A DNA stretch of 64,000 nt, from positions 3,259,001-3,323,000 of the forward strand of contig NZ_CP015136.1 in NCBI RefSeq assembly GCF_001618865.1, in the 5' to 3' direction. The stretch is from Luteitalea pratensis (GTDB lineage: Bacteria; Acidobacteriota; Vicinamibacteria; Vicinamibacterales; Vicinamibacteraceae). Numbering within the stretch: the stretch's first letter is position 1; every line of letters starts with the position of its first letter. Below are positions 17,707 to 52,837 of this stretch, in pieces. Both the position numbers and the translations under genes were made by a program. The notes under the pieces were generated by a model. That model worked only from the letters and a program-made list of their open reading frames with translations, searched no databases and had not been told where the DNA came from.

Positions 17707-18040
17707 GACGTGTTTCAGGTTATCGCACTACACTCCGTCGCCGCCTGCGCCTGAATCGCCGCGATGGGCTCGCATTGACCCTCGCGCACGCGACGCGTGG
17801 GGTGCTTCGAAGTTCTTGCTGTCGACACTCACGGGCACCGAGGCGGCGGGCGGTCCTTCGGCGGAGGCGGCGGGACCCGCGCCCGCGTCCGGCCTAGCGC
17901 GAGCATAAAAAGCTCAGAAAAACGTCAATGCCAAACGACCAGGCGGCACGATCTTGCCGCCGCGGTGGAGTATTGGCGGAGGGCGGCGGGAATCGGCGTT
18001 CTTCAGTCTTGGTAAGTCATTGTGAGTCAATGACTTAGAG

Positions 18041-35749: not shown

Positions 35750-37234
35750 TCACGCGACACGGGGGGCGATGTTGGGGTTCAGATGAAACAGGTTCGTCGG
35801 GTCGTATTTTGTCTTGACCTCGATCAGCCGATCCAGGTTGTCGCCATAGGCCGACCGCGCCTTGACGTTGCTATCAGTGGCATTGAGGTTCGCGTACAGT
35901 CCGACCGAATAGGGCTCGAACCCTTTCCACGTCCGCTTTTGCCACGCCGTGCGCGCGGCCGCGTCCTTGGGATGCTCCCACGACGCGCGCACCACGAAGT
36001 TGTGGCTCGCGTCGCGCGAAGCGTAGGCCGTGGATGCGGCCGGACGACGCGCACTCGCTCCTCCCTGCTGCGTGAGGGAGATCTTGCCTAGCTCGGCGCC
36101 AGGTAGTGTGATGCTTTCGACTGCGTGGTCGAGCATGATGGGAACGAGTCTCGCAATCCGTCCACCCGACATGTAGTAACCATTGCCATGAGGTGAATCG
36201 CGATCGAACTCCGACTGCACCGCGGTCCACGGTTTTCGGGCGACGCTGTCGCGCACCGACTTGCCGAACTTTCGTATGGCGGCGACGTCTTTGCCGGCGC
36301 TCGCGTCATCGCCGCAGTGACAGAGAGTGAAATTGAGCTGCCGATGACCCGCGCCATCGCATTCGAGCACGGGGTCCATCCAGAGTTCGTCGCTGGCGGA
36401 ATCGCAGTAGTCGGCGAATGCGTCGAGCACGCGGCGTGCCTGGTCGATTGGAAAGACGATGCCACCGGCGACTGCAGTGCGGCCGAACTCGCACGCGCGG
36501 AATTCGAACGAAGTCACTACGCCGAAGTTGCCGCCGCCGCCCTGGAGTGCCCAGAGCAGATCGGGATTCTCATCACTGCCGGCCCGCACCAATCGGCCGT
36601 CCGCAGTAACCAGGTCCGCGCCGACCATGCAGTCGACGGTCAGGCCAAACTTTCGCTGCAGCCGACCGACGCCACCACCGAGCGTGAGGCCCGCGACGCC
36701 GGTATGCGAGACGGTGCCTGCGGGCACTACGAGCCCGAAGGCCTGGGTTTCACGGTCCAGCGCACCTAGCAAGACACCAGGTTCGGCGCGAACGACGCGT
36801 GTCTGCGGATCGACCCGAACGCCTTGCATGGGGGCGAGGTCGATCATGATCCCGCCTTCACACACCGAGTAGCCGGGGAGGCTGTGGCCTCCACCCCGCA
36901 CCGCGACCAGCAGGTCGTGGCGCGCGGCAAACTGCACCGCACCGATCACATCTGCGGCACCGGTGCAGCGCGCGATCACCGCCGGGTGACGATCGAATGC
37001 GCCGTTCCAGACGCGCCGCACAACGTCGTAACTGTCGCTGTCGCGGGTGAGCACGGGTCCGCGCTGCTGGGCCTGGAACGCGACGATGTCTGCTGCCCTG
37101 AGAATGACTGCACCGCCCGTCCGCGAGACGGCTGGCACGTCGGCGGATTGCGCCGCGCGTGCAAAACGCGAATGCGCAAGGCCGGATGCAACCATGAGCG
37201 CTACAGAACTGGAAAGGAAGTCTCGCCTTCTCAT
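35750..37234 (-). CDS. FAD-linked oxidase (berberine-bridge-like), Tat-exported
   Basis: About 494 residues from ATG 37234, chosen because GGAGAG precedes it and a twin-arginine signal follows (MRRRDFLSSSVALMVASG). The FAD-binding PCMH domain at ~55-230 shows AVRGGGHSLPGYSVCEGG with the flavin-linking His, GGGVGRLQRKFGLTVD and GGGGNFGVVTSFEF. The C-terminal berberine-bridge domain ends in ENLD-like DNLDRLIEVKTKYDPTNLFH. Related enzymes oxidise sugars, alkaloids or aromatic alcohols with oxygen. Substrate unknown. It is isolated between mobile debris regions. Confidence 0.9.
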   Translation of the reverse strand: MRRRDFLSSSVALMVASGLAHSRFARAAQSADVPAVSRTGGAVILRAADIVAFQAQQRGPVLTRDSDSYDVVRRVWNGAFDRHPAVIARCTGAADVIGAVQFAARHDLLVAVRGGGHSLPGYSVCEGGIMIDLAPMQGVRVDPQTRVVRAEPGVLLGALDRETQAFGLVVPAGTVSHTGVAGLTLGGGVGRLQRKFGLTVDCMVGADLVTADGRLVRAGSDENPDLLWALQGGGGNFGVVTSFEFRACEFGRTAVAGGIVFPIDQARRVLDAFADYCDSASDELWMDPVLECDGAGHRQLNFTLCHCGDDASAGKDVAAIRKFGKSVRDSVARKPWTAVQSEFDRDSPHGNGYYMSGGRIARLVPIMLDHAVESITLPGAELGKISLTQQGGASARRPAASTAYASRDASHNFVVRASWEHPKDAAARTAWQKRTWKGFEPYSVGLYANLNATDSNVKARSAYGDNLDRLIEVKTKYDPTNLFHLNPNIAPRVA

Positions 37235-38762
37235 ATCGCTCTCCATCGGTCACCGTCGATGCTGCGTAGTCCGCGCGTCGAAACGGTAAGAAACGATCCA
37301 CAGCATTAGCGGTGCGGAGGGACAGGAGGGGCGTAACCAGCGCTTCCCGGGCACCCGGCATTGACAAGGGGCAGATTGATTAGAACCCACCGCAGCGAGG
37401 ATGAAAACAAGAAAAGCTCTTCGAGAGCAGCGCGACACGCCGATACACGCTCAAGGCGCAGGCACACCTCAGGCGCTTGCGCGCGAGCGATGACGGTTCG
37501 CAGACGGCGCACGGGGCGCGTCGGTGCCGGCACGATGAACGTTCGATCCGGCGTTGACACGCCCGCCCCGAGGATCCCGGAACTCGGCGTAGATCCGATT
37601 GCGAGGGCACTTTAACGAAGACGCTGTATCGGTGATCGTCTTAAGCGGTGTTCCGGACGGGTACGGCGAGCGAGATGGCAGAGGGAGGCGGCGTGAACGG
37701 TCCCGTGCCCGGGTCGCCGGAGCACAGAAGACGCCGGAATCTTGCAAACGGGACTCCGCGCGTGGGCTGGAATTGGCCCACTCGGGGGAGAAACAGGGGA
37801 GGGGACGCGGGAACGGAGCTGGGCTGTATCAGCTAACTCACTGACAGTAAATAACTTAGAATGGTGGAGGCGGCGGGAGTCGAACCGGTTGACCCTCCAT
37901 CGTGCAACTCATTGCAGGCGCGCGACTTCTGGTGTTAACCCCTGCAATTGCCGCAGTTAAGCCATTCTCCCCGAGTTCACTGCCGTCCCCTGGAATCCTC
38001 TGGAAGCCTCCCCAGTCGTGGAGTATTGGCGGAGGCGGTGGGCACAGTGTCCCGCGTCCAGAATCCCTGGGACAGTTCGGCCGGCGTTGACAACTGAACC
38101 CCGGGTTGCCTGGATGGAGTCTTTGTCACGCTTGGCAACCGGCCGGGGGCGTCCAGGCAATCCCGCGACGAAGCGCCGGTGCCTAGGGCCGAATCACCTT
38201 CCCGACGAAGCACTCCGCCCGGAAGCGGAAGCCATCGTGACCGGCAAAACGTCCGAGGACGAAGGATCCTACCGGCCAGTGAGTGCGCCGCCCCCGACCG
38301 ATCGTCCGTTCGTAGGGATTTACGAGCCGTTACGCCAAACAGGCCCCACTTACGAGCGGCGTGCTTCTTGACAGGCCGCTGTAGCGTCCACCTGCGGCGC
38401 GCCGGATTCTAGCAGTGCCGCAGCTGCGCTGGCGATTTCGTCAACACCGGCATTTACTCTCCCGTTAGACCGATGGAGAATATCGGAAATCAAAAGCTCT
38501 GGTCCTACTTCGACGACGCTGCGAGGCGCGTCCTGCAGCCAATCTTGCGATCCGAAGCGCGGCCGGGCACTGCGTCACGACGTACTTCGAGCTTGCCAAG
38601 AAGGTCGATTACCGAACAACGAAGGGGAACGGCCTTCTCAAGGCGAGCGCATTCAGACTTGCGAAGGAAAATTGCCGACGGGAGGATTCTTGAGCGCAGG
38701 TTCCAGGTTCTCAAGCTTGCCGGACCGAGTAACCTGTGCGCGGCTTTCTGTCTGTTCACTTC
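37235..38762. other. 1.5-kb gene-free region with att-like sequence d
   Basis: No open frame here shows a known family or ribosome site. It holds the class-II att-like sequence at 37862-37960, a degenerate core-like TTGGCGGAGGCGGTGGG at 38025-38041, and an inverted repeat GGTTGCC/GGCAACC (38104-38110 and 38134-38140). The kinase promoter should lie within its last 200 bp. Confidence 0.5.
37862..37960 (-). repeat. Att-like sequence, class II (copy d)
   Basis: The core TGGTGGAGGCGGCGGG is followed by GAACCGGTT and, ~60 bp on, CGCGCGACTTCTGGTGTTAA then CCCCTGC. The copy at 51292-51390 has the same flank, whereas class-I copies have TACCCCCA sites instead. No integrase remnant is seen beside it. 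Confidence 0.6.
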
Positions 38763-41700
38763 ATGAGCGACGACGTCACACCTGAGACCCGCGTCTGCAT
38801 CGCTTGTGGCCGGCCGCTGCGACTGGACGCTCCGGAGGGGTTGTGCCCGGTCTGTTTGCTCAGCCTCGGCAGTGGCAGTGTCGGCGATCCCTCAATTCCG
38901 ACCCTCGCGCCAGGTCCGTCGTCGGACGAAACTGACGAGACGTCCACGCGACTCCATCCAGGAGACATCTGGGGCGACTACCGCATCGGGCGGCTGCTCG
39001 GCCGTGGCGGCATGGGCGAGGTGTACGAGGCCGAACAGTTGCAGACGGGCAGACGTCTGGCGCTGAAGGTTTTACGCAGCCGGTTGCACCGGCCCGACGA
39101 TCGCGCGCGCTTTCTCCGTGAGGGTCAGCTCGCCGCATCCGTCAGCCATCCACACACGGTGTACATCTTTGGGAGCGAGGAGATTGCCGGCACGCCGGTC
39201 ATCACCATGGAGCTCCTCACCGGGGGGACGCTGAAGGATAAGGTCGCCGTGGAGGGCCCGCTGGCCCCTGCGGACGCCGCCGCGGCGGTGCTCGATGTTG
39301 TTGGCGGGCTGGACGCCGCACACGCCGCGGGCATTCTGCATCGCGACGTGAAGCCTTCGAACTGCTTCATCGACCACGAGGGCCTGGTCAAGATCGGCGA
39401 CTTCGGGCTCTCGATCTCAACACTGAGTCGAGACGTGCGTTTCGAGCTGGAGGGAGGTGGATTTCAAGGCACGCCTCAATTCGCCGCACCGGAGCAGCTG
39501 CGCGGCGAGCCACTCGATCTGCGGGCCGACATCTACGCGGTCGGCGCCACGCTCTACTATCTCCTGACGGGGCGACCGCCCTTCGAAGCCACCGACCTGC
39601 GCGATCTGATCAGCCGCGTCGTCCAGGAACCGGCCCCGTCGCCGCGTGATGTCCGCCCGGAGATTCCGCCCGGCCTCGCCGGACTCGTCCTGCAATGCTT
39701 GAGCAAGTGGCCATCGGCTCGCCCGCAGTCGTACGCGGTGCTGGCCGAGGCGCTCCGTCCGTACGCGTGTTCCAGCGCTGTGGCACCACGCCTCGGCGCC
39801 CGCGCATTGGCTGGTGTGGTCGACACCCTGATCATTGGCTTCCCGCTTGGGGTCATTAGCCTCGGGCTCCGGGGTCTGGGCGCGCTTGATGCCGCAGAGG
39901 TCGTTCGCCCTCCTTCGTTGCTGGCCCTGGCCCCAATGGCCAGCCTTGTCTACTATCTGATGCTCGAGGGCACGGCGGGGGCCTCGCTGGGCAAGCGCTT
40001 GTTTGGCCTGCGGGTTGTCTCCGCGTCCGGTCCGCCGTCGTTTCGTCGCGTGTTGATGCGGACGCTGGTCTTCGTGCTGCCGGGCTTGACGCTGACCGCC
40101 GTTATCCTATGGCGAGGGACACCGCCCAACATCCCACCCAACCTCGTGCGACCCGCCAGCGCGCTACTGTTTGCGGCGCTCTTGTTCATCCCGGCCCGGC
40201 GCAAAAATGCATGGCGCGCGTTCCACGAACTCGCCAGTGGCACGCGAGTCGTGTCACGGCCGCGGCCGGATCGTCGGCGTGTGCGGGCGCCGCAACTCGC
40301 TGCGGCACTTCGCGAGCCTGAACGCCGCGCGCACCTTGGTCCATTCGTCGTCCTCGCCGATGTGGGCGCGACGGATCGTGGCACCCTGATGCTCGCGGTC
40401 GATCCGATCCTGCGTCGCAACGTCTGGATTCATCAGCGGCCACTCGGCGACCCGCCGACGAGCGCGAGGCGGCGCGATGTCTCGCGGATCGGGCGGCTGC
40501 ACTGGCTCGCTGCGCAACCCAGCCCCACTGACCACTGGGATGCTTTCGAAGCGCCGCCAGGACGACCGCTGGTCGCCGCTCGCGAGCCCGCCGACTGGCC
40601 GACGCTGAGAGGGTGGCTGATGGATCTGGCCAACGAGCTCGTCGCTGCGGAAGGCGACGGGACGCTACCGGAGGTCAGCCTCGCGCAAATCTGGCTGCGG
40701 GACGACGGCCATGTTGTGCTGCTCGATTTTCATCATCCTATGGTCCGCCACGCCGAGCACCACACCGGAACGATCGCGCCTGGGCCGGCCAGTCTCCTGG
40801 CCGCTCTCTCCGTCCACGCGATGTCGCTGACGCCAGGTGTCGGGGGGTTCCCGCTGTCCCTGCGAACCCTGACCGACGAGTGGCGGCACAGCACCGCGGC
40901 GGGCGCGGAAAAGGCGCGCGAGCAACTGGTCGCCCTCTCGGGCACGTTGGACCGCGTCACGCGCGCCCGTCGTGCACTGCCAATGGCCTTGTTCTTGGTG
41001 CCCCTCCTGGCCATGATGGGTGCCTGCGTGGTCGCCGTGCCGGCGATACACCGCATGCGGACGGCGGAACACGCGAATATGTTGCAGTGGTTGGACATGC
41101 TCATCACCCCGACGCCCGACAGCCGGCTGGTTGATCCGGACCTTTACCAAGAGGCCGAACACTACGTCGCCGACCGCTTCCGTTCGAGCTTGAGCGACGA
41201 AACGTTCTGGCGCACCTTCACGCCTCAACGGGAACGTCAGGCCCTTCGGCATGATGCCGCGCGGCGCCTCCTGGCGCGATACCCCGCCGACGCCAGCCAC
41301 GTCATCGCGCGCTCGGCACGACTGGCGCCGGAGATCGAACGAGCAGACCAGGCCAGCCGGCAGATCGCGGACGGGGCCGAGGGGTTCGTGTCGTTGGTGG
41401 TCAGTACTCTGGTGGCGCTTATCACGGCACTGGTAATGATCTTTCACATCGTCTCGTCGCTGGTGATCCCAGGCGGTGTCGTCACCCGATTCAACGGGTT
41501 GGCCGTCGTCACGGCCGATGGTCGTGGGGTGAGTCGGGCGCGCTCGCTGGCTCGCGCGCTCCTGGCGTGGTCGCCCGCCGCGCTCTGGTTTATCGGGCTG
41601 GCCGCGTCGCAGAGAAGCCCGGACAGCATCCCCCTCCCGTCCTCGCCGATGGTCGGCCTCGTGTTGACGTATCTGCTCCTGGCCGCCGGCGCCATCGCCA

Positions 41701-41765
41701 CCCTCGTGCACCCTCAGCAAGGACCCCACGATCGGCTGGCCAGGACCTGGGTCATTCCGCGGTAA
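38763..41765 (+). CDS. Ser/Thr kinase with zinc ribbon and RDD membrane domains
   Basis: 1000 residues from ATG 38763. Residues 10-32 form a zinc ribbon (CIACGRPLRLD, GLCPVC). The kinase domain spans ~75-335: LLGRGGMGEVYEAEQ, LALKVLRS lysine, ILHRDVKPSNCF, KIGDFGLSIS, GTPQFAAPEQL. Next comes an RDD-type membrane region (PRLGARALAGVVDTLIIG, GASLGKRLFGLRVV), then a soluble kinase-like or binding region, a span at MALFLVPLLAMMGACVVAVP, and further spans with a second RDD-like block near the end. It likely senses membrane state. The sigma-factor gene begins 6 bp downstream, the reverse order of the other two pairs. Confidence 0.9.
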   Translation: MSDDVTPETRVCIACGRPLRLDAPEGLCPVCLLSLGSGSVGDPSIPTLAPGPSSDETDETSTRLHPGDIWGDYRIGRLLGRGGMGEVYEAEQLQTGRRLALKVLRSRLHRPDDRARFLREGQLAASVSHPHTVYIFGSEEIAGTPVITMELLTGGTLKDKVAVEGPLAPADAAAAVLDVVGGLDAAHAAGILHRDVKPSNCFIDHEGLVKIGDFGLSISTLSRDVRFELEGGGFQGTPQFAAPEQLRGEPLDLRADIYAVGATLYYLLTGRPPFEATDLRDLISRVVQEPAPSPRDVRPEIPPGLAGLVLQCLSKWPSARPQSYAVLAEALRPYACSSAVAPRLGARALAGVVDTLIIGFPLGVISLGLRGLGALDAAEVVRPPSLLALAPMASLVYYLMLEGTAGASLGKRLFGLRVVSASGPPSFRRVLMRTLVFVLPGLTLTAVILWRGTPPNIPPNLVRPASALLFAALLFIPARRKNAWRAFHELASGTRVVSRPRPDRRRVRAPQLAAALREPERRAHLGPFVVLADVGATDRGTLMLAVDPILRRNVWIHQRPLGDPPTSARRRDVSRIGRLHWLAAQPSPTDHWDAFEAPPGRPLVAAREPADWPTLRGWLMDLANELVAAEGDGTLPEVSLAQIWLRDDGHVVLLDFHHPMVRHAEHHTGTIAPGPASLLAALSVHAMSLTPGVGGFPLSLRTLTDEWRHSTAAGAEKAREQLVALSGTLDRVTRARRALPMALFLVPLLAMMGACVVAVPAIHRMRTAEHANMLQWLDMLITPTPDSRLVDPDLYQEAEHYVADRFRSSLSDETFWRTFTPQRERQALRHDAARRLLARYPADASHVIARSARLAPEIERADQASRQIADGAEGFVSLVVSTLVALITALVMIFHIVSSLVIPGGVVTRFNGLAVVTADGRGVSRARSLARALLAWSPAALWFIGLAASQRSPDSIPLPSSPMVGLVLTYLLLAAGAIATLVHPQQGPHDRLARTWVIPR

Positions 41766-41771
41766 GTCGAC

Positions 41772-42485
41772 GTGGTGAGGTCCTTCCAGACCACGCGGTG
41801 GAGTCTCGTCCTCGCGGCGGGCGGCGACACGTCGCCGGCGGCGCGGGCCGCCCTCGCGAGCTTGTGTGAACTCTACTGGTATCCGCTGTATGCCTATGTC
41901 CGCCGGCGCGGCCGCAGTCCCGACGACGCCAGCGACGTGACCCAAGCGTTCTTTACCGCACTCCTAGAGCGGCACGACTTCGACCAGTTGAGCCCCGAGC
42001 GGGGGCGCTTTCGCGCGTTCCTGCTCGCGTCTCTCAAGCATTTCCTCGCGAACGATTTCGCCCGTCGTCGGGCGCAGAAGCGGGGCGGCGGCGCCGCGCC
42101 GGTCTCGTTGCCGCTTGATCATGCAGAAGAGCGCTATGCGCGAGAGCCGGCCGACGCGACGACGCCAGAGATGCTGTATGAGCGCCGCTGGGCGCTCATC
42201 GTGATCGAGCGAGTGCTGTCCACGCTTCGCCACGAATGGCGGCGGCAGCAGCGGGAACAGGAATTCGAGGCGCTCCGCAGTTGTCTGCTCGGCACGGCGC
42301 CGCCCGGTGGGTACGCCGCGACAGCCGCGGCACTGGCCATGTCGGAGGGGGCGGTGAAAACGGCGGTCCATCGGTTGCGGCGTCGGTTCCGGACGCAGCT
42401 GCGACAGAACATCGCGGAGACCGTCTCGGAACCCAGCGAGGTTGAGGAAGAGATCCGCTATCTCATTCGGACGCTGGCCCTGTAA
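41772..42485 (+). CDS. ECF RNA polymerase sigma factor
   Basis: 237 residues from GTG 41772 (a second GTG is adjacent). Region 2: FQTTRWSLVLAAGG, YWYPLYAYVRRRGRSPDDAS, DVTQAFFTALLER, GRFRAFLLASLKHFLAND. Region 4: LAMSEGAVKTAVHRLRRRFR. The C-terminal tail (IRYLIRTLAL) belongs to a group common in Planctomycetes and Acidobacteria. It follows the zinc-ribbon/RDD kinase with a 6-bp gap, so the two form an operon and the kinase is the likely controller. The last 79 bp are duplicated at 46072. Confidence 0.92.
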   Translation: MVRSFQTTRWSLVLAAGGDTSPAARAALASLCELYWYPLYAYVRRRGRSPDDASDVTQAFFTALLERHDFDQLSPERGRFRAFLLASLKHFLANDFARRRAQKRGGGAAPVSLPLDHAEERYAREPADATTPEMLYERRWALIVIERVLSTLRHEWRRQQREQEFEALRSCLLGTAPPGGYAATAAALAMSEGAVKTAVHRLRRRFRTQLRQNIAETVSEPSEVEEEIRYLIRTLAL

Positions 42486-42592
42486 CCTTTTTTGTCATTT
42501 CCGTCTGATCGGTGCATGAGCCACACCCAAGGCACCTTTCCCCCGCCATGGCAGCCCCTTTGTCAACGCAGGAGGAAGACCCCAGGGGCAGT
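42407..42592 (+). repeat. 186-bp duplicated block, left copy
   Basis: Contains the last 26 codons of the sigma gene, its stop, and ~107 bp of downstream sequence up to CCCCAGGGGCAGT. The second copy at 46072-46263 is near-identical (a few substitutions and ~6 extra bases). The two bracket 3.48 kb. Confidence 0.9.
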
Positions 42593-43496
42593 CGCATTCA
42601 TCGCCTTCTCCACGGTAACGCGGACGGGGACGAAGCAGGCGTTACGAACTTGTGAGCCGGCCAGTGACGGCGGGTCCGCTTCTGCCGCGAGGACAGGACG
42701 TAGCGCCACTACGGTCAAGGCCCGTATCGCGCTTGTAGCCGGACGTCTCTGTGCCGCCGCTGTGGTGATTCCCATGGCGGTTGAAGGCTCGAGCACCATC
42801 GCCTGCGCGGCGCCCGCGCCTCTCGCGGTCGCTACCTTCATCGCGAACGCCGGCATCCACGAGCGAATGCCTGCGCGCTCGCTGCTCTACATCCGGGAAC
42901 GCGCTTGTGCACAGCACGGTGGAAAGCAGGACCTCAGACCCGGTGTGCCGGTCATTCACGACAACACACTTGCGGCCGTCAACCCGTCCTCTCCGATCCT
43001 GCTCGTACCCGCCACAGATGCCAAGACGGCGCCGCCGTCGGGCGGCGTAGCGCTCGCTACGGGACGTGACCTGCCTTCCAATCTCGTTGCGCCGCACACT
43101 CTCGAGCCCCAGCTGGCGAGGATGTGGAAGCAATCGCGCACGTTCCGGCGACAGTGCGCCCGCATCAATGCCGCACCGGGCCTCGTGGTTCGGGTCCTCA
43201 CTGCTGCCGCGGTGAGCCAGTCCGGCGACCGAGCGGCGACGCACCTCCAGCGTAGTGCCACCGGGCTCGAAGCCGTCGTGAACATCACTGGCCGTGCGGC
43301 GGCGAGCGACTTCATCGAAATCATCGCCCACGAGTTCGAGCACATCGTCGAACAACTGGATGGGGTGGATCTGGCTCGATTCGCTCGCCTGGCGCCCGGT
43401 ACCGTCTGGGCGACCGGTACCCAGCAGTTCGAGACGGAACGTGCCACTCACACCGGCCGGTTGGTCGCGGCGGAGGTTGAAGGCCGCGCGCGTTAG
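42516..43496 (+). CDS. Putative exported zinc metalloprotease
   Basis: The recognisable part begins around residue 75 with a signal-like stretch (RIALVAGRLCAAAVVIPMAV) and carries FIEIIAHEFEHIVEQLDGVD, an HExxH zinc site with a following acidic region as in small gluzincin-like proteases. The rest is not assignable. ATG 42516 lies in the duplicated block and its first ~80 residues look non-coding, so the true start is probably between 42700 and 42774. The next gene starts 10 bp downstream, suggesting co-transcription with the propeller protein. Confidence 0.6.
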   Translation: MSHTQGTFPPPWQPLCQRRRKTPGAVAFIAFSTVTRTGTKQALRTCEPASDGGSASAARTGRSATTVKARIALVAGRLCAAAVVIPMAVEGSSTIACAAPAPLAVATFIANAGIHERMPARSLLYIRERACAQHGGKQDLRPGVPVIHDNTLAAVNPSSPILLVPATDAKTAPPSGGVALATGRDLPSNLVAPHTLEPQLARMWKQSRTFRRQCARINAAPGLVVRVLTAAAVSQSGDRAATHLQRSATGLEAVVNITGRAAASDFIEIIAHEFEHIVEQLDGVDLARFARLAPGTVWATGTQQFETERATHTGRLVAAEVEGRAR

Positions 43497-43505
43497 GGGA
43501 TTTCT

Positions 43506-44867
43506 ATGCGCACTTCCTGGACTCGCATGTTGGCAGGGGCCGCCTCCGGTCTGCTCCTCGCAGCTCCGGAGACGCAGGGAGCAGACTCGTGCCCACTCAC
43601 CGCGATTCCGCAAGGTTCCAGTGCCTCCGAGTTCGGCCCTCCCAGCATCAGCGCCGACGGACGCTTTTTGGCCTTCGCGTCGCGCACTCGCCTGGTCACG
43701 TTGGCGACGGGTACCGGAAGCGAGATCTACGTGCTCGATCTGATGACGCAGACGCTGACCGTAGAGAGCCCTCTGCCTAGCGATTCTCTTTTGAGCAGCG
43801 ACAGCCGCGCTCCTAGCATCAGCAGCGATGGCCGGTTCCTCGTGTTCGAATGGGTCGGAACGTCTCGTGGCGGAAGCGCTCCACCTGAGCATAAGCAAAT
43901 CATGCTGCGCGATCGTCGAGTCGGGACGATACGAATGCTCAGCGTGAACGGCAGCGCGGTGCCCGGCGACCAGTCCAGTAGTAATGCTGTCCTCAGCGCT
44001 GACGGGCGTGTCGTCGCCTTCGAATCGCTCGCGACGAATCTGGTGCCAGGCACCGACGTGAACGGGGCCGATCGCGACATCTACATTGCTGTTCTTGCCA
44101 CGGGCGCGATCACACGCGCGAGTCTCGATACCAGCGGTCTTCAGCGGGAGGGGCCGAGCTTCGCGCCGGCCGTCAGTGCTGACGGTCGGTACGTGGCGTT
44201 CACGTCCGATGCGAGGCTGGACGAGGCTTCTGCGCTGGGAGACGCGCGGACGGACCGGCCACACACCGGCAGGCATCACGTGTTCGTGCGCGATCTGGCG
44301 CGTGGGATCACGCGGCGAGTGAGTCGCCGACCGGATGGGAGCGAACCCAACGGAGCAAGCTTCCTCCCCTCGATCAACAGCGATGGCCGCTGGCTGGCAT
44401 TCGTATCGAACGCGACCGATCTCGCCGCTGGCGATACGAAAGACGTTTCGAATATCTTTCTCCATGACCTCGAGGCGTCCACGACGACGCTTGTCAGCCG
44501 CGGCGTCGACGGCGCCGCGAGCGATGGCGCAAGCACGCGGCCCGTGCTCTCGGGGAGCGGACACTTGGTGGCCTTCGAGTCCGTCGCGTCCAACTTGGTA
44601 TGCGGAAAGCGATGCCGCCCGCTCGACCTGGACATCAACCTCTTGACCGATGTGTTCGTCTTCGATCGAGATGAGCGGTCGATCGTACGCCTCAGTTCCG
44701 ACTCGCACAGCGGCTGGATGGAGGCGAGTGGGTCGCCAGCGCTCGACGCAAGCGGACGCGTTGCGGCGTTCTCATCGCGTCATCCGATAGCCGATCACGA
44801 TACCCGCAACGACTTCGACTTGTTCGTCGTGACGCCTTGTGGTGACGGCACGACAGTCCAACGGTGA
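43506..44867 (+). CDS. Secreted PD40/TolB-like propeller protein
   Basis: 453 residues with a signal peptide (MRTSWTRMLAGAASGLLLAA). Six or seven blades with the recurring pair SxDGRxxAFxS and DIYxxxL: PSISADGRFLAFASRTRL, NAVLSADGRVVAFESLATNL, PAVSADGRYVAFTSDARL, SGSGHLVAFESVASNL. It is smaller than, and lacks the C-terminal modules of, the protein at 13036-15306. Role unknown; it likely binds in the periplasm or outside. It directly follows the putative metalloprotease gene. Confidence 0.82.
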   Translation: MRTSWTRMLAGAASGLLLAAPETQGADSCPLTAIPQGSSASEFGPPSISADGRFLAFASRTRLVTLATGTGSEIYVLDLMTQTLTVESPLPSDSLLSSDSRAPSISSDGRFLVFEWVGTSRGGSAPPEHKQIMLRDRRVGTIRMLSVNGSAVPGDQSSSNAVLSADGRVVAFESLATNLVPGTDVNGADRDIYIAVLATGAITRASLDTSGLQREGPSFAPAVSADGRYVAFTSDARLDEASALGDARTDRPHTGRHHVFVRDLARGITRRVSRRPDGSEPNGASFLPSINSDGRWLAFVSNATDLAAGDTKDVSNIFLHDLEASTTTLVSRGVDGAASDGASTRPVLSGSGHLVAFESVASNLVCGKRCRPLDLDINLLTDVFVFDRDERSIVRLSSDSHSGWMEASGSPALDASGRVAAFSSRHPIADHDTRNDFDLFVVTPCGDGTTVQR

Positions 44868-44983
44868 CGTTTGTCATGACAAGCGGAGGGCGATCCGGAA
44901 GCGCCACTCTCCCGAACACGGTTGAACCTTGGATCGACAGCGGCGTTGGTGCATCGCGAGCCGTCTGCACGGGCGTTCAGAGC

Positions 44984-46071
44984 GGCGTTGGTGCATGGTT
45001 GCTGCGGCCCTCCCGTCAGTGGGTCGGCGAGTTGGAGCCGGTGGCGTGCCGACCGCCTACACCGCATGATCGTGCGATGAAGTCGCGCGTGCATCCCACG
45101 TACAAGACAACACTATCGTGTGGCGAACTGGCGGTTGTATGAACGCGCCCTCGTCATTCGAGGCGACGTGACGTTGTGGCTCTCCCCGGAGGCTATGGCC
45201 GCGTGGGGAGTTCCGCCGTGCGGTCGACCGGGCGGGCAGCGGCGGTTCTCAGATGTGGCGATTGAGACCGCCATGACCCTCCGGCTCGTGTTCCGTTTGC
45301 CACTGCGCAGACCGAGGGCTTCGTCCGGTCGATCCTGACGTGATGCGCGCGAGTCTCGATGCGCCGGACCACTCGGCGCTCTCGCGACGGGGTCAGTTGC
45401 TGGATGTCGCGCTGCACGACATCCCGACCACTGGACCACTGTATCTCATCGTCGACAGTACGGGACACTCTGTTGTTGGCGAAGGGGAGTGGGCGGCCGC
45501 GACAAACGGCGGACGTGGCACGCGAGGCTGGAAGAAACTCCATCTGGGTGTCGATCGCTTCGGCGCGATCGTCGGCCATGCACTGACGGACGCGACGGTC
45601 GATGACGCGACCGTGGGCATTGGCCTGATCGTAGCGGCTTCTGGTCACGTCGTCAGTGTCACGGCGGACTCGGCCTACGACACCGTCGCCTTCTATGAGG
45701 CCGTCGAGTGCGCGACGCGCGCGGTGCCGCCAACTAGGACGGCGAAAGTGTCGCGCCGCGGACCGCGCTCGAATGCGCGCGATCGCGTGATCACCGACGT
45801 GGAAAGGCTCGGACGGCGCGAGTGGAAGAAGGCCTCTGGCTACGATCGGCAGGCCCGTGTGGAGAATGCCTTCTTCCGCTACATGTCCGTCATTAGCGAT
45901 GGCGTTCGCGCCCGCAGTGTACGTGGCCGGGAGGTCGAGGCGAGGCTTGCGTGCCGCGTCCTGAACCGGATGACGGCGCTTGGCAGGCCGGGGAGTCGGC
46001 TGCGAGCAGTAGGTGACGAGCCCGCGCGTTGGGAGAACTGCGAGTCCGGTGTCGAGCCATGCACCAACGCC
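44984..46071 (+). mobile_element. Full-length inactive IS903-type copy
   Basis: The left end GGCGTTGGTGCATGG is at 44984 and the right end ATGCACCAACGCC finishes at 46071 (1088 bp). A solo left-end motif lies just before it at 44942. The transposase starts at ATG 45078. It has a frameshift near 45305-45340, where a base is lost in the LPLRQTEGF region; the second frame then runs past the right end into the duplicated block. Catalytic VDSTG, TADSAYD and RVENAFFRYM remain. The duplicated block begins on the very next base. Confidence 0.87.
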
Positions 46072-46263
46072 GAACATCGCGGAGACCGTCTCGGAACCCA
46101 GCGAGGTTGAGGAAGAGATCCGCTATCTCATTCGGACGCTGGCCCTGTAACCTTTCTTGTCATTTCCGTCTGATCGGTGCATGAGCCACACCCAAGGCAC
46201 CTTTCCCACCCATGCGCATGGCAGCCCCTTTTGTCGACGCGGGAGGAAGACCCCAGGGGCAGT
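46072..46263 (+). repeat. Duplicated block, right copy
   Basis: Near-identical to 42407-42592, including the sigma-factor tail, stop codon and downstream CCACACCCAAGGCACC. Its left edge coincides with the right terminal base of the IS at 44984-46071. Confidence 0.9.
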
Positions 46264-46427
46264 GGAATGGGGAGCGGGCGACTCGTGGCTATGTGCCCCT
46301 AGTCAATGAATCAGTTGTTGCGGCCTTTCGGTCGTGAGGTCGGAGGTTTCATAGGCGACGCGCGCTCACGAAGACCGCCAACAGTGGCGACTTCTTCGAA
46401 GGTTTGTTGCGTCCCCTGGAGGTTTCG

Positions 46428-47138
46428 ATGGAAAAGCGATTGCTGTTCTTCGCGTACCCGGTGTTGCTGATCGCGGCGTGCACGACCAGTACGACGCCCA
46501 CTGCACCGACATCGGCGCCAAATGCCGGAAGCGGAGCGCTCGCGCATGTGGGGCATGGCGGGACCGCCGCGGGCACGGCCAGCGCCGATGACCCCAATTC
46601 GGCCGCTCACGACGACAAGGGGTACATTGACGGCTGGTTCAATGGCGAGGACGTGCGGCTTTACTATACGAAGTCTTTTTTCTGTGACCCGCTGTCGGCG
46701 ACCACGACCGTCCCATGCGAGCTTGGGGGGCCGCCGGACACGGCGCCCCGCCCAGGGCCGATCCCGACAATCTACGCCATCGCTGCCGCACCGACGATCG
46801 CGAATCTGGTCGATCCGACAACTCTCGCCTGCCGCGCCGGCACACCGTGTCTCAATCACCCGTTGATGATCGATCTGTCGCGTATCGGCGGCAGTTCAAC
46901 CGCGGGACCCGCGGCACACAATCACATCCTGACCTCGCGCGGGGGTGGCTGGTTCCATACGGTGAACATCCGCGTGTTCTCGCTTGCCGCCTGGAACGAG
47001 ATCGCAGCGGCCAAGACATTGGCCAAAGTCCGTGAGCTGCAGGGTCATCCCAGCGTAGGCACGCCCGGGGTGATCAGCGCCGATACGCCGACCAACATCT
47101 TCTTCTTCATTGCCGGGCTGCGGCCTGAGGGGGAGTAA
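46428..47138 (+). CDS. Lipoprotein of unknown function
   Basis: 236 residues from ATG 46428 with CTGGAGG upstream. The signal ends in a lipobox (LLIAAC), then a Thr/Ser/Pro-rich spacer. The mature domain contains YIDGWFNGEDVRLYYTKSFF, a disulphide-like Cys pair (ACRAGTPCL) and histidine-rich NHPLMIDL / AAHNHIL. I do not recognise the family; Cys and His content would suit metal or small-ligand binding. It follows the right copy of the duplicated block, so it was probably the original neighbour of the sigma gene before the 3.5-kb insertion. Confidence 0.78.
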   Translation: MEKRLLFFAYPVLLIAACTTSTTPTAPTSAPNAGSGALAHVGHGGTAAGTASADDPNSAAHDDKGYIDGWFNGEDVRLYYTKSFFCDPLSATTTVPCELGGPPDTAPRPGPIPTIYAIAAAPTIANLVDPTTLACRAGTPCLNHPLMIDLSRIGGSSTAGPAAHNHILTSRGGGWFHTVNIRVFSLAAWNEIAAAKTLAKVRELQGHPSVGTPGVISADTPTNIFFFIAGLRPEGE

Positions 47139-47400
47139 GGGGCGCGTCCGTAAATATGGCCCCGTCACGGCGACCTACCTCCTGGACGAGCCCGTGCAGT
47201 CTGGGCGTCTGCGTCGTTATCAAGAGTGACTCGTTCTCTCGTACCGCCGTCGAACGCCGGCTCAACGCCTGTCCGCCCGTGTGGGCTGCTGGGGATCGTG
47301 CGTGCTCCTCCACGGGCCGCGTGCGACGCGCACAGACAGGAGCATCCCCGTGGTCAACAGCCAAGGGCCCGATCCTGACCGCTTGTGCGAAAGCGGCGCG

Positions 47401-48291
47401 ATGTTTCGACGCGCGGCGGTCACCTGCGTGCGCGTAACGGCACATGGTACCGGCATTCTCGCCACGTGCCTGTGCGCCCTCCTGGCGGCGAACTGCGACC
47501 GTTCACCGACCGCTCCGGATGGCTCCGGAGCCCAGGTCCGCGGTATCGTGATGGACAGAGTCGGCCGCCCGCTCGGGGGCGCGCTCATCGCCGCCCTCGA
47601 CGGTCCTCAAGCTGGGACGACACATCTCACGGACGAGACGGGCAAATTCGAGCTGACAGGAGGACCTGCAGGCTCGGTGACTGTTCGCGTGAGCCGAGAC
47701 GGTTTCACCGCCCGCACGCAGGTCATATCGTGGGAGCCGACCAACAGCAGCCAGCGCTCGTACATTCCCGTATGGCTGGATAGCCTCGAGTCACCTAAGG
47801 GGCTAGAGCCGGGCGAATACACACTCACCCTCACCATCGACCTTGCGGCGGCACGCGGCTTCAACTCGAAGGCCCCCTGCGCGGGGTTCCCCGAAGAGTT
47901 CGCATCGCGGAGCTATGCCGTGACCATTACGCCGACCCCATACTCCGCCGCGTACAACTGGTTGGTGCGTTCTGATTACCACGCGCTCCTGGGGCACGAC
48001 CTATTCGTGTTCGCGGTGGCGGGCCAGTTCGTCGGGTTGGGTTTCGAAGAGCCATTCACGGAGGAGCTGCCAGGCCTCCGCCACGTCAGGATTGGCGGGT
48101 CGGATCGAGGGACAGTGGCGGCCGCGACCACCATCGGCTCGACGGTGTCGGTCTCCTATGAAGGGAGCTTCGAGTACTGCCAGACCAAGTCGTACGGCAG
48201 CCGCAACTGCTGGCACGAACCGGCAGACCAGGTAGTGGCCTACCACGCATGCTGGTCGGACCGCGCCACGATGACATTTAAGAAGCGATGA
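47401..48291 (+). CDS. Lipoprotein with carboxypeptidase-regulatory-like domain
   Basis: 296 residues from ATG 47401. The signal region ends LCALLAANCDR (likely lipidated Cys). Residues ~45-125 form a beta-sandwich of the carboxypeptidase regulatory-like type: VRGIVMDRVGRPLGGALIAA, LTDETGKFELTGGPAGSVTV. The C-terminal half (EYTLTLTIDLAAARGFNS, VSVSYEGSFEYC) is unknown and has four cysteines. Probably an outer-membrane-attached binding protein. Confidence 0.78.
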   Translation: MFRRAAVTCVRVTAHGTGILATCLCALLAANCDRSPTAPDGSGAQVRGIVMDRVGRPLGGALIAALDGPQAGTTHLTDETGKFELTGGPAGSVTVRVSRDGFTARTQVISWEPTNSSQRSYIPVWLDSLESPKGLEPGEYTLTLTIDLAAARGFNSKAPCAGFPEEFASRSYAVTITPTPYSAAYNWLVRSDYHALLGHDLFVFAVAGQFVGLGFEEPFTEELPGLRHVRIGGSDRGTVAAATTIGSTVSVSYEGSFEYCQTKSYGSRNCWHEPADQVVAYHACWSDRATMTFKKR

Positions 48292-48473
48292 TGCTTGCAG
48301 TTGACCTAGGCGGCGCCGGCTGCCGCACGACGCCAAGCTGTGCCCATCGACATTCTGTACGTTTCCGCGCGAGTTGTCGTCGCGACCGGAGACGCCCATA
48401 GGTGTATGCGCGGCAATCGGCAGGGTAGCGGATGATGCGTCGCATGCCGACGAGGCGCTGCCCACAGCAACGC

Positions 48474-48660
48474 GGCGTTGGTGCATGGCTGCGGACCCTC
48501 CCGTAGTGGGGCGGCTGTTGGAACCGCTGGCAGGCCGGCGCTCCGCGGCGGCATGATCGTGCGATGAAGTCGCGCGTCCATCCCACGTACAAGACGCAAG
48601 ATCGGGTGGGGCATTGGCGGTTGTACGAACGCGCCCTGGTCAGTCGGGGCGACGTGACGC
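48474..48660 (+). mobile_element. IS903-type left-end fragment
   Basis: The left terminal repeat GGCGTTGGTGCATGGCT, the leader and the first ~32 transposase codons (from ATG 48564: MKSRVHPTYKT, RLYERALVSRGDVT) stop at GACGTGACGC. The frame is open into the peptidase gene that follows, but that gene has its own start. Confidence 0.85.
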
Positions 48661-48707
48661 ACGTAGCCGGGTTCACGAACATCGACATCCGTCGGAAGGA
48701 GGCGATT

Positions 48708-50009
48708 TTGATCCTCACACGTAGGCGACTCCTCACGCTCGCCGGCGGCATACCGACCAGCCAAGGGCTATCGGCGTTTGTTCCCACGGCGAGCGCTCGT
48801 CAGACCGTGAGCCCCGTGCCGCAAGACGATCCGTCGACCCTGCGGCGTATCGCTCGTGTCATCCAGGAGTATGACGACCAAGGTGATCACCGCACCGGCA
48901 CCGACACCGATTACCGTTCGGCCCAGTGGCTCGCGAAGCACGCGGCACTCGCGGGTCATCGCGCCACGCTCGAGTCATTCCGCCTTATGCGAGTGGACCC
49001 GGGACCGTCCTATGTCCAGGCCGGCGAGCGACGCGTCGACGGCTTGCCGATGTTCGACGGCGCATTCACGAGCGAGCGCGGCGTCGTGGGGCGCCTCGGC
49101 GTTGCCGGTGGTGCGACGGAGATTGGGCTGTTCGTGGCGAACCTCATGGCCATCGCGGCCGAAGCGGCGCCGATCGAAGAACTCCGCCGGTCCAACAGGC
49201 ACAAAGCGCTGATTGTCGTAACCAGGGCAGCACGGCCCGGGCTCTGCCCCATCAACGCGCGGTATTTTTCCCAACCCTTCGGGCCCCCCGTGTTGCAGGT
49301 CGGCAGCGAAGAAGAGGAGTGGTTGACCCAAGCCGCCAGCCGACAACAGGAGATCACACTGGTCGTGCAGGCGACCCGCACCGCGGCAGAAGCGTCGAAC
49401 GTCGTGGCGCAAGTCAAAGGAACCGAGGCGGACCTGCCGCCGCTCGTCGTCTTCACCCCTCGGAGCAGTTGGTGGAACAGCGCAGCAGAGCGCGGAGGCG
49501 GGCTCGCGTGCTGGCTCGAAGCGATGCGAGCCGTCAGAGTGGGCGGACAGACTCGCAGCGTACTCTTTCTGGCGACCAGTGGACACGAGTTGGGCCACCT
49601 CGGCTTGGAACAGTTCCTCGCCCGGAGGGCACGTATCGGGAAGCAGGCGTTTGCATGGATGCTGTTCGGCGCGAACATCGGTGCGGCGCACGGCGCCCAA
49701 CGGATGTCGCGGCTGCAGGCGTCGGATGATGAACTTGAGCGGCTGGCCGACGAAGCGATGACGCGTGCGGGTACCAAGGTCGACGGGAAGCTCCCGCGAG
49801 GCGCGGTGCCCAACGGCGAGGTGCGCAACATTCACGAACGGGGTGGACGCTATCTTTCCCTGGGTGGAACGAATCCCTACTTCCATAACCCAGGCGACCG
49901 TTGGCCGTTGACAGTGGACATCAAGGCGGTCGAGCGATACTCAAAGGCATTCGCCGATCTCATCACGGTGCTCGCGCAGCGGAAGCAACCATCGGCGGGT
50001 GCCGTTTGA
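48708..50009 (+). CDS. M28-like peptidase-family protein, Tat-type signal
   Basis: About 433 residues. The start is taken at TTG 48708 because GAAGGAGG precedes it and a twin-arginine-like signal follows (LTRRRLLTLAGG). The body shows DDPSTLRRIARVIQEYDDQG, GTDTDYRSAQWLAKHAALAG, SVLFLATSGHELGHLGLEQF and FHNPGDRWPLTVDIKAVERY. This is the layout of M28-type aminopeptidase relatives, but several zinc-ligand positions are not obvious, so activity is uncertain. It sits between an IS left-end fragment (48474-48660) and an internally deleted IS (50037-50327). Confidence 0.68.
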   Translation: MILTRRRLLTLAGGIPTSQGLSAFVPTASARQTVSPVPQDDPSTLRRIARVIQEYDDQGDHRTGTDTDYRSAQWLAKHAALAGHRATLESFRLMRVDPGPSYVQAGERRVDGLPMFDGAFTSERGVVGRLGVAGGATEIGLFVANLMAIAAEAAPIEELRRSNRHKALIVVTRAARPGLCPINARYFSQPFGPPVLQVGSEEEEWLTQAASRQQEITLVVQATRTAAEASNVVAQVKGTEADLPPLVVFTPRSSWWNSAAERGGGLACWLEAMRAVRVGGQTRSVLFLATSGHELGHLGLEQFLARRARIGKQAFAWMLFGANIGAAHGAQRMSRLQASDDELERLADEAMTRAGTKVDGKLPRGAVPNGEVRNIHERGGRYLSLGGTNPYFHNPGDRWPLTVDIKAVERYSKAFADLITVLAQRKQPSAGAV

Positions 50010-50036
50010 CGCTTGGCCGGAATCCTCGAGGCGGCT

Positions 50037-50327
50037 CACAAGACGCAGTATCGGGTGGGGAATTGGCGGGTGTACGAGCGCGCGCTCGTCGGTCGGGACG
50101 ACGTGACCCTGTGGCTCTCGCCACCCGCCAGGGCCGCGGGGGGCGTGCCGCCGTCAATGGCCTTCGCGCCCGCAGTCGAGGTGGTCGGGACGTCGAGGCG
50201 ACCCTCGCCTGTCGTGTTCTGAATCGGATGACCGCGCTTGGGAGGCCCGAGTCGTCGGTGATCACTCGTGACGAAATCCGGGAATTGGGCGAACTGCGAG
50301 TCCAGTGTTGAGCCACGCAACAACGCC
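50037..50327 (+). mobile_element. Internally deleted IS903-type remnant
   Basis: The transposase start region (RVGNWRVYERALVGRDDVTL) is joined directly to its end (AFAPAVEVVG, CRVLNRMTALGRPESSVITR) and a damaged right terminal repeat (AGCCACGCAACAACGCC, ending 50327). About 700 bp of the element is missing. Confidence 0.82.
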
Positions 50328-50424
50328 GACCATGACGTCGCCGACCGGGGATGCCAGCGGACAGCGGGCAGCGCGTGCGCTGACGGGCGCGCTATGCGAC
50401 GACCGGCGGACGAAGAGGTGGCCG

Positions 50425-50903
50425 ATGTATAGCCGACGTAATCTACTCCGTCTGACTGGTGGCGTCATCGTCGGCGCTGCAATGAAGCCGACGACCGTCG
50501 TGAACGCTCAGCAAACACCCACCGGTCAGGGACTCGTCATTGGACAGCCGGAAGCTGCACGGGTTGGGCAGGACGTGCTCGACGCTGGAGGCAATGCCGT
50601 GGATGCCGCCGTCGCGGCAGGGCTTGCGGCTGGCGTCGCCGCGATTGGCGCCTGCGGCATTGGCGGGTATGGCGGTCACGTGGTCATCGCGCTGGGCGGG
50701 AAAGTGACCGCCATCGACTTCGATACCGCGGCGCCGCACGCAGCTCGCCCCGACATGTTCCCACTTGATGAAAACGGCGCGGTTCGCGACGGCCGAAATG
50801 TGCGCGGATGGCTGTCGGCAGGCGTGCCGGGAACGCTGGCGGGATTGTACCTGGCCGCGGATCGTTACGCGACGCTACCGTTCAGCACGCTGCTAGAACC
50901 CCT
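50425..50903 (+). pseudogene. Gamma-glutamyltransferase, N-terminal fragment
   Basis: From ATG 50425 (GAAGAGG upstream), a twin-arginine-like signal (MYSRRNLLRLTGG) is followed by the start of a gamma-glutamyltranspeptidase: AARVGQDVLDAGGNAVDAAV, GIGGYGGHVVIALGG, PHAARPDMFP, VGVPGTLAGL-like AGVPGTLAGL. About 160 codons remain of the usual ~550. Homology ends at ~50900, where GAGATCCGTACCCCCAG, the arm-flank sequence of the class-I att modules, begins. The catalytic Thr and small subunit are gone. Confidence 0.85.
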
Positions 50904-51031
50904 GCTGAGATCCGTACCCCCAGTTGTCCGCCTGCAGGCCCACCGATCGGTGAGCTGCGACAGGTGTCCGGCACTCACGGCGACGGTGTGAACACCACGA
51001 CTCGATGCCCGCGTCGCCGCTGTCGCCTGAA

Positions 51032-51072
51032 TGACGAGAACTCGCGCGCAGAATGTCTGGGCACGTAGCCCC
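51032..51072 (+). repeat. Dispersed 45-bp repeat, copy 6
   Basis: TGACGAGAACTCGCGCGCAG followed by AATGTCTGGGCACGTAGCCC. It lies 19 bp before the integrase tail. Confidence 0.65.
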
Positions 51073-51090
51073 GTGGTGCGCCGGCGCGGG

Positions 51091-51284
51091 CCATTCAAGA
51101 GTTGGTGGGTCACCAGGACCTGTCGACCACCCAGCGCTACATGCACCTGAGCCCGGCGGCGCTCGACGCCGCCATCCGGCTCCTCGACGGCCCGGGGGGC
51201 GTCACTGGAGGGCCGGCCGTGTCCGCCATTCGAGTGTTGGCGGAGGCGGCGGAAAAAAGAAGGCTGAATTTGAGAAAAACCTAA
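51091..51284 (+). pseudogene. Tyrosine recombinase C-terminal tail
   Basis: Reads AIQELVGHQDLSTTQRYMHL (catalytic His and nucleophile Tyr), SPAALDAAIRLLDGP, and stops after RRLNLRKT. It is the same integrase family as the remnant at 28036-28397. The Arg-His box and everything upstream are replaced by the 45-bp repeat. The stop lies 8 bp before att-like core e. Confidence 0.85.
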
Positions 51285-51291
51285 GCAAAAG

Positions 51292-51390
51292 TGGTGGAGG
51301 CGGCGGGCGTCGAACCGGTTCACCCGCCATTCCGCAAGTCATTGTAGGCGCGCGACTTCTGGTGTTAACCCCTGCGTAGACAGCATTTAG
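51292..51390 (-). repeat. Att-like sequence, class II (copy e)
   Basis: The core TGGTGGAGGCGGCGGG (one base changed just after it) is followed by GAACCGGTT and CGCGCGACTTCTGGTGTTAA, matching copy d at 37862. It directly follows an integrase tail, as expected for an attachment site. Confidence 0.65.
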
Positions 51391-51811
51391 GCCCGTGCTC
51401 TCCCGTACACCCCAGTCCTCCGATTTCCGCCTGACTACTCCCGAGTCGTGGAGGAATACAAGAGGTGGCGCGACCGGGCTCCCGCCGCCGGTCGGCGGTC
51501 GTTCTTCTGCGGCGCTCCACGCTCGCACCGTCCAGTCCGGCAACGCACTCTTTGTCCAGTTCGGTGTGGAGAACGACAGGCCCCTCTCGGCCTGCTGACC
51601 CGTTGAGACACAGGCGTACACGAAACGGTTCGGCGGCATGGTCGCGGTAGTCGTTCCCGTGGATCTTCCCGTGCTGGTTGACGAGAACTCGCGCGAGTGC
51701 GGAATGTCCGTGGACACAGCCCTGCAGATTGTCCGTGCACGCAGCCAGGTCCGGAGTCCAACAGCCCCAACGGTATCATTCCGGTAGGATCAACCTTCGA
51801 ATGAGGACGTG
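51391..51811. other. Gene-free stretch with 45-bp repeat copy 7
   Basis: No gene is supported. A 45-bp repeat is at 51680-51723 (GACGAGAACTCGCGC, then GGAATGTCCGTGGACACAGC), with a partial second unit up to 51749 (TTGTCCGTGCACGCAGCC). Confidence 0.5.
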
Positions 51812-52231
51812 ATGCAGACACACTCAGTGGTCGCGCTCCTGGTGGTCGTCGTATTCTCGAAGGCCGCGGCACTTGCCACTTCAGTCCCCCATGTCGTCGC
51901 TAGTTCCATCCAGGCGGCCGCCGCCAAAGTGAAGGAAGACTTCTCGACTCCGCGCGCCGCTGTCGAGACGTTCTTCGCGGCAGCAGCTGCCCGCGATGTC
52001 GACTTGCTCAGCCGATGCTTCACCGACGGTCCGAAGGAGTTCGAGCCGCTGCGCAAGAAGCAGGTCCCCGAGCGCGAGCTCGAGGGCTTCTCCCAGGAGT
52101 TCGGCGTCGGCAAGGTCGTCAGCGTGGAGCAAGGCGAGCAGGCGGCGTACGTCATGGTGAAACTCAAGAGCCGCGACGAGAAGATCGAGATGAGGAAGGT
52201 GGGGAACGCCTGGAAGATCTCCGATTTCTGA
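51812..52231 (+). CDS. Small exported protein, DUF4878-like
   Basis: 139 residues with a signal peptide (VVALLVVVVFSKAAA). The mature part, STPRAAVETFFAAAAARDVDL, LSRCFTDGPKEFEPL, YVMVKLKSRDEKIEMRKVGN and AWKISDF, has the NTF2-like pattern of DUF4878-type lipoproteins, in which a helix-rich start is followed by strands ending in a W-K motif. No lipobox is visible. Function unknown. Confidence 0.7.
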   Translation: MQTHSVVALLVVVVFSKAAALATSVPHVVASSIQAAAAKVKEDFSTPRAAVETFFAAAAARDVDLLSRCFTDGPKEFEPLRKKQVPERELEGFSQEFGVGKVVSVEQGEQAAYVMVKLKSRDEKIEMRKVGNAWKISDF

Positions 52232-52394
52232 CGAGCCAGTCCCGATCGAGGCACGAGCACCCCCACCGCTACATCCACAGCGCGCACTAGGGCAACGACG
52301 TCGCGTTCGACCCGGCGAAGATCCACTGAGCGTCAGTCTCCAGTAACGATCGGTCCGAAAGTCGCCAAGCAGGTCAAGGAACCTGGAGGGTGCG

Positions 52395-52837
52395 ATGAGC
52401 AAGAAGAACATACCCTGCCGCGTATTGATCATTGTCGCGGTTTTGTTCATCTCCGCCCCGGCAACCGGCGCCGGTGTTCCCGCGAAGGGCACCGAAATTC
52501 TCTGGGACCACTACGGCATCCCGCACATCTTCGCGCCAGACCATCCCAGCCTCTTCTACGCCTATGGCTACGCCCAAATGGAAGCGCACTCCGAGTTGTT
52601 GTTGCGCCTGTACGCGCAGGCTCGCGGCCGCAGCGCGGAGTTCTATGGCGACCAACGGCCCCGCAACACTCGCGCCGGAGAATCGTTTCTCGAATCCGAC
52701 CGCTGGGTGCGCACGAATGGCATACCCGAACGAGCCAAAATATGGGCGTCCGAGCAGAGCCCGGAGTTTGCGCCGCTTCTGCGCGCGTTCGTGGCGGGAT
52801 TGAATGCCTGGGCGAGTGAGCATCCCGATCTCCGGCC
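52395..52837 (+). pseudogene. Penicillin-acylase-family N-terminal fragment
   Basis: From ATG 52395 (CTGGAGGG upstream), a signal peptide (VLIIVAVLFISAPATGAG) is followed by the penicillin-acylase start: ILWDHYGIPHIFAPD, FYAYGYAQMEAHSELLLRL, ESDRWVRTNGIPERA, FVAGLNAWASEHPD. The homology stops at ~52837 where mobile border sequence begins. The beta-chain with the catalytic N-terminal Ser is missing, so it is inactive. Confidence 0.88.

Follow-up and report, generated by a model that had tools for sequence, protein, structure and literature searches.

The window analysed here is a stretch of 64,000 nucleotides that corresponds to positions 3259001-3323000 of a genome consisting of a single contig of 7,480,314 bases. 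Seven-digit coordinates refer to the genome and shorter ones to the window. Its central part carries the following features:

37862-37886, plus strand: tmRNA 3'-end repeat, left border of the island, 0 mismatches
38736-41765, plus strand: Ser/Thr protein kinase with an RDD domain (Pfam)
41772-42485, plus strand: ECF-type sigma factor gene (Sigma70_r2, sigma70-ECF)
42407-42592, plus strand: left copy of the repeated block, with the last 26 sigma codons (stop included), a promoter-like motif and a leader with GGAGGAA
42484-42506, plus strand: putative ECF-sigma promoter 1, AACCTTTTTTGTCATTTCCGTCT, overlapping the sigma stop codon
42593-46071, plus strand: stretch between the copies (module and IS); left junction at 42593/42594, the place where the paralogue 3151952-3152829 also starts
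42777-43496, plus strand: protease-like gene with HEFEH; frame open from 42492, start uncertain
43506-44867, plus strand: PD40 beta-propeller protein gene (PD40 match)
44942-44957, plus strand: solo left IS end, 42 nt ahead of the IS
44983-46072, plus strand: IS5-family element, 1090 bp, transposase in two frames (45120-45338 and 45340-46110)
46072-46263, plus strand: right copy of the block, its first base shared with the last base of the IS
46149-46171, plus strand: putative ECF-sigma promoter 2, AACCTTTCTTGTCATTTCCGTCT, in the right block copy
46428-47138, plus strand: putative lipoprotein gene with no known relative
51292-51316, plus strand: tmRNA 3'-end repeat, right border of the island, 1 mismatch

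The sigma gene matches Pfam Sigma70_r2 and NCBIfam sigma70-ECF, each slightly above the cut-off. An earlier note on this DNA had placed a metalloprotease-like gene and a propeller-protein gene between the block copies. The PD40 match bears out the latter; for the former, the HEFEH motif can be read by eye, while searches returned neither a Pfam or NCBIfam family nor a relative in the PDB. The same searches were negative for the lipoprotein ORF, in which a lipobox-like LLIAAC was read by eye, and no Rfam family was found in 37000-52500. Further downstream, left and right parts of the IS5-family element flank a peptidase-like gene at 48473-50328 (HELGH by eye), and a 70-bp IS segment lies on both of its sides, 87% identical. 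We set this gene aside as a second insert with a repeated target, since a repeat of 70 bp at 87% could stem from two IS fragments unrelated to each other.

When 42407-42593 and 46072-46264 are aligned with gaps allowed, 183 positions are identical and 4 mismatch, including the final base at the edge, while 4 gaps account for 6 columns. The start-to-start spacing is 3665 nt; beyond the block, on both sides, likeness does not exceed that of shuffled sequence. The duplication of 186 bp around an insert of about 3.5 kb, claimed earlier, is therefore real and its coordinates are exact in both the repeat finder and the gapped alignment, as is the claim that it comprises the sigma-gene tail and downstream sequence. 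Chance does not account for it (E 4.6e-80), and the block occurs at exactly two places in the 7.48-Mb genome, which rejects a repeat trailing every sigma gene. An assembly artefact is unlikely, given the 4 mismatches and 4 short gaps that separate the copies. The ungapped repeat finder split the block into 42407-42542 / 46072-46207 (136 nt, 99%) and 42555-42597 / 46226-46268 (43 nt, 88%), but the sharp divergence gap between the halves that this hinted at was weak on the gapped alignment (p = 0.066).

An array of decayed islands at ssrA

The ssrA gene lies on the minus strand at 3450224-3450579. From 3120046 to 3450224, the tmRNA 3' end recurs 20 times in the forward and 0 times in the reverse orientation (at most 6 mismatches, 15 of the 20 having at most 2; the gene itself is counted as one), against 0-1 in ten shuffles, and 13 of the 19 spacings measure 9-18 kb. 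Seven repeats fall in the window, at 513, 17859, 18041, 28431, 37862, 51292 and 61777, those at 17859 and some other places having up to 6 mismatches. When the region 3.08-3.46 Mb was compared with itself, direct matches numbered 1914 and inverted ones 116. The block thus sits in an island of about 13 kb, within a tandem array of about 330 kb of decayed islands at ssrA. An integron array was set aside by eye: the repeat ends do not fit the attC core, and the oriented short repeats are tmRNA ends.

Tandem genomic islands at ssrA are known, as in Dehalococcoides, where PMC3146451 describes a similar succession of many one-way direct tmRNA 3'-end repeats behind a single ssrA. The Dehalococcoides islands carry a serine recombinase, whereas the decayed islands studied here gave one weak match in a search that covered tyrosine integrases only: a short PF00589 hit, below cut-off, at 51072-51152, just before the repeat at 51292. 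Searched alone, the ORF at this position had no Pfam match.

The array is strewn with relatives of the IS5-family element at 44983-46072. Its transposase matches NF033579 in two frames (E 1.5e-14 and 2.6e-38, each below the whole-protein cut-off) and Pfam DDE_Tnp_1 above cut-off, and its terminal inverted repeats of 16 bp (44983-44998 / 46057-46072) are 100% complementary. The element shares with IS5-family insertion sequences the transposase model, the inverted ends and the length; it differs from them in having no consistent target duplication and in a strongly one-way orientation in the array. Flank identity is 0 nt at this copy, and 0 to 4 nt with no common length at the 14 two-ended copies examined. 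This does not put the IS5 family in doubt, because loss of the target duplication is expected after deletions; IS-adjacent deletions are a known cause of IS copies lacking one (PMC11708052). The IS ends are nearly invariant, and the bodies are about 80% identical among copies. Several copies keep both ends without the middle in a MITE-like manner, for instance 3162073-3162438 and 3111001-3111391. In a plasmid collection, two short matches were found, both to an IS5 transposase stretch; a phage collection returned no match.

In 3.08-3.46 Mb, 63 of 66 IS fragments are on the plus strand (38 of 40 once neighbours are merged), whereas the genes there run both ways, with 147 plus and 114 minus according to a crude caller. 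Outside the array, at least 12 matches occur among the 40 places scored out of 165 candidates; those listed comprise five near 1.0 Mb, all plus, and two clusters that are uniformly minus, with four matches at 4.86-4.89 Mb and three at 6.05-6.07 Mb. With a DnaA-like motif near base 470, the pattern fits replication-directed insertion, the alternative being a fixed orientation of the islands; the terminus could not be located from the GC skew, whose signal was too weak. Orientation by replication direction has been reported for several IS families (PMC5371812).

Junctions of the block and IS ends as edges of duplications

The terminal base of the IS is also where the right copy starts; at the corresponding point the left copy runs on into intact sigma sequence. 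Position 46072 is both the last base of the IS and the first base of the block, so the IS does abut the right copy as had been noted, and the ends of the IS are fixed by many other copies. The junction thus lies exactly at an IS end and shows no target-site duplication, which is what characterizes IS-adjacent deletion or IS-end joining.

A paralogue of the protease-propeller module, 150 kb away and without the middle part, starts at the right edge of the block: 3151952-3152482 aligns with the window from 42594 on (92%) and 3152481-3152829 with 44431-44779 (97%), the overall range being 92-97% identity. Because the paralogue also begins there, the left edge of the insert is a real junction, located at 42593/42594 to within about 2 nt by two separate comparisons, the block alignment and the module paralogue. 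The coincidence of the module's left edge with the block's right edge favours the module as the newcomer and the lipoprotein as the older neighbour. The earlier proposal that the lipoprotein was the original neighbour of the sigma gene gains from this separate module, and the lipoprotein is plausibly the older neighbour.

IS ends also form the edges of other duplications in the region. The 380 kb contain 18 non-IS duplicated segments with an identity of 88% or more and a length of 90 bp or more, and in four of them an edge lies no more than 2 nt from an outward IS end. When the positions of the IS ends were shifted circularly, the mean count was 0.022 and the maximum 1 in 1000 shifts, 0 of 1000 reaching 4. 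With looser identity, the counts were 6 of 51 at 80% (control 0.059) and 9 of 157 at 70% (control 0.211). The four pairs are:

42407-42592 and 46072-46263 (window): the two block copies
3263971-3264235: other copy at 3175309-3175570, 95%
3332079-3333020: other copy at 3383211-3384152, 95%
3228881-3228980: other copy at 3173281-3173380, 90%

These four cases are few and their far ends differ; in the list of duplicated segments, none of the pairs was seen to continue beyond the IS. Since 4 of 18 recent duplications have IS-end edges, the boundary at which the right block copy starts is best read as belonging to the region's class of IS-end junctions, and the IS-strewn array at ssrA shifts the interpretation of the repeat in the same direction.

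At 3332057-3333003, an intact, full-length copy of a PP2C phosphatase gene (312 aa) comes after 21 bp of an IS right end, and its ATG lies within that IS end, in frame; the other PP2C copy is the one at 3383211-3384152.

The promoter-like motif and relatives of the locus

ECF sigma factors recognize promoters with an AAC-type -35 and a CGTC-type -10 element. The motif of the block shares both and is a likely ECF promoter, which the local sigma factor may read. Its placement over the sigma stop codon sets it apart from ECF promoters at large. A literature search on the ECF promoter found no paper.

The pattern AACCTT-N10-TNCGTCT has four matches in the 7.48-Mb genome, all beside two related sigma loci, against one for the backward control: both copies of the block hold one, and the other two belong to a second sigma locus (3374691-3381131, minus strand; gene match 3380433-3381128). 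There, one motif overlaps the stop codon of that sigma gene and the other precedes the probable start of a HEVFH-containing ORF, which had no Pfam match. The genome holds four full-length relatives of the sigma gene, itself counted, and two of the four have the motif. In a wider set, 42 related sigma loci had a readable stop, although two or more of these are the same contig counted twice. The strict motif stands behind 2 of the 42, little above a background of 2.2% of 1754 windows, so that a promoter as a general feature behind related sigma genes is not borne out in this form. A relaxed motif, chosen post hoc after the sequences had been viewed, occurs at 4 of the 42 against a background of 0.4%. 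The promoter reading thus appears good for this genome, and not general.

Among 149 genomes of the class, this one included, the promoter and leader part of the block matches in its own genome only, and 62 nt of the coding part were matched at 73% in one other. The lipoprotein likewise was found in its own genome only among these 149, and a larger genome collection yielded no relative. Relatives of the sigma gene reach 57% identity in one search and, in the larger collection, 25 loci were found, the best with 54% over nearly the whole protein. Neither the junction of sigma gene and lipoprotein nor an empty site was found in the relatives searched.

Origin of the right copy

We consider, at about even odds (probability near 0.5), that the right copy is the tail, trimmed at an IS end, of another sigma-promoter unit, located ahead of the lipoprotein. 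Such a second copy would have stood before the lipoprotein gene, coming from a homologous island, a tandem copy or a sister chromosome. An end of the IS5-family element that lies behind the protease-propeller module would then have joined this copy inside its sigma tail, via an IS-adjacent deletion or an equivalent joining of the IS end, with removal of the sequence to its left. The right copy would be what was left: the end of the sigma gene, the promoter and the leader. We infer this order of events, as we do the role of the motif as a promoter read by the local sigma factor. Homologous second copies of the sigma-promoter unit are to be expected because the region is an array of related islands at ssrA. 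Against this explanation, the transposase is now in two frames and earlier action, or supply in trans, would be needed; the edge cases number only four; and the strict motif is found at 2 of 42 loci and at 2 of the 4 sigma relatives of the genome. Apart from the block at its two places, nothing was seen of a second kinase or sigma copy belonging to the same type.

A related rearrangement has been observed directly in Pseudomonas fluorescens, with an IS481 between the two copies of a duplicated stretch and no target duplication (PMC11708052). The cases in this paper share with ours the IS exactly at the junction, duplicated DNA on both sides and the absence of a target-site duplication; they differ in that the duplication there is 60 kb, fresh and laboratory-observed, whereas the present one is about 190 bp, old, and has foreign cargo between its copies.

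The strongest competitor to trimming at an IS end, which we hold to be distinctly less likely, is the integration of a circle. A circle carrying the IS, the block, the protease and the propeller, arising for example by recombination between two IS copies, would have entered by a single crossover in the block upstream of the lipoprotein and left the order block-module-IS-block. It would produce all three junctions at once, the module edge included, and direct IS repeats are plentiful in the region; yet it requires a donor with the IS in a sigma tail and the module behind the block, and none was found, and the homology available for the crossover is short (about 190 bp).

Tandem duplication of block and module with the IS at the join, followed by loss of the second module that brought the lipoprotein beside the second block, is unlikely. 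The IS481 case offers a precedent for such an arrangement, but the second block would end only by chance where the module paralogue begins.

The same coincidence of edges weighs on a templated patch, in which a break at the IS end would have been mended by copying about 190 bp of the nearby sigma tail, and which we regard as very improbable. Two other IS right ends do precede copies, 265 bp and 942 bp long, of segments that lie at distances of 88 kb and 51 kb and are intact at that other place as well; at about 95% identity, however, these copies may simply be homologous islands trimmed at an IS.

The earlier note was right that the duplication is too long for an ordinary IS target repeat: a giant target-site duplication is rejected, as only the right side is an IS end and a block of about 190 bp stands against 0 nt at this IS copy and 0-4 nt at others. 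Of the two explanations offered in its place, a transposon with long homology, having the block as its ends, fails because the block has no further copy in the genome and an IS end is found at its left edge alone; unequal recombination persists as a rival. Neither the promoter-like motif of the block nor the island array at ssrA figured in the earlier note.

Should the motif be a sigma-dependent promoter, a promoter of one and the same sigma factor would lie ahead of both the incoming protease-propeller pair and the lipoprotein. This would mirror the second sigma locus, with its two motif copies ahead of two genes in succession. A broader reading, speculative and rather improbable, is one of regulon expansion: IS ends would capture or trim neighbouring DNA, so that promoters and genes are re-used beside them, with the sigma promoter doubled, a foreign protease-propeller pair recruited, the lipoprotein not cut off, and the PP2C start codon taken from an IS end. 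Otherwise the rearrangement is basically an ordinary IS-associated one, a case of gene shuffling driven by mobile elements. The case shows, down to exact coordinates, how decayed islands are rebuilt: IS ends edge duplicated segments far above chance, and one such segment carries the apparent output promoter of the local sigma factor, a testable route for foreign genes into a regulon.

Two further repeats were recorded in the array. A 216-bp inverted duplication (3361366-3361581 / 3449857-3450072, one copy near ssrA) is 99.5% identical and far younger than the rest, and 3429479-3435499 holds local direct repeats of 120-360 bp, 90-94% identical, at three places within 6 kb.
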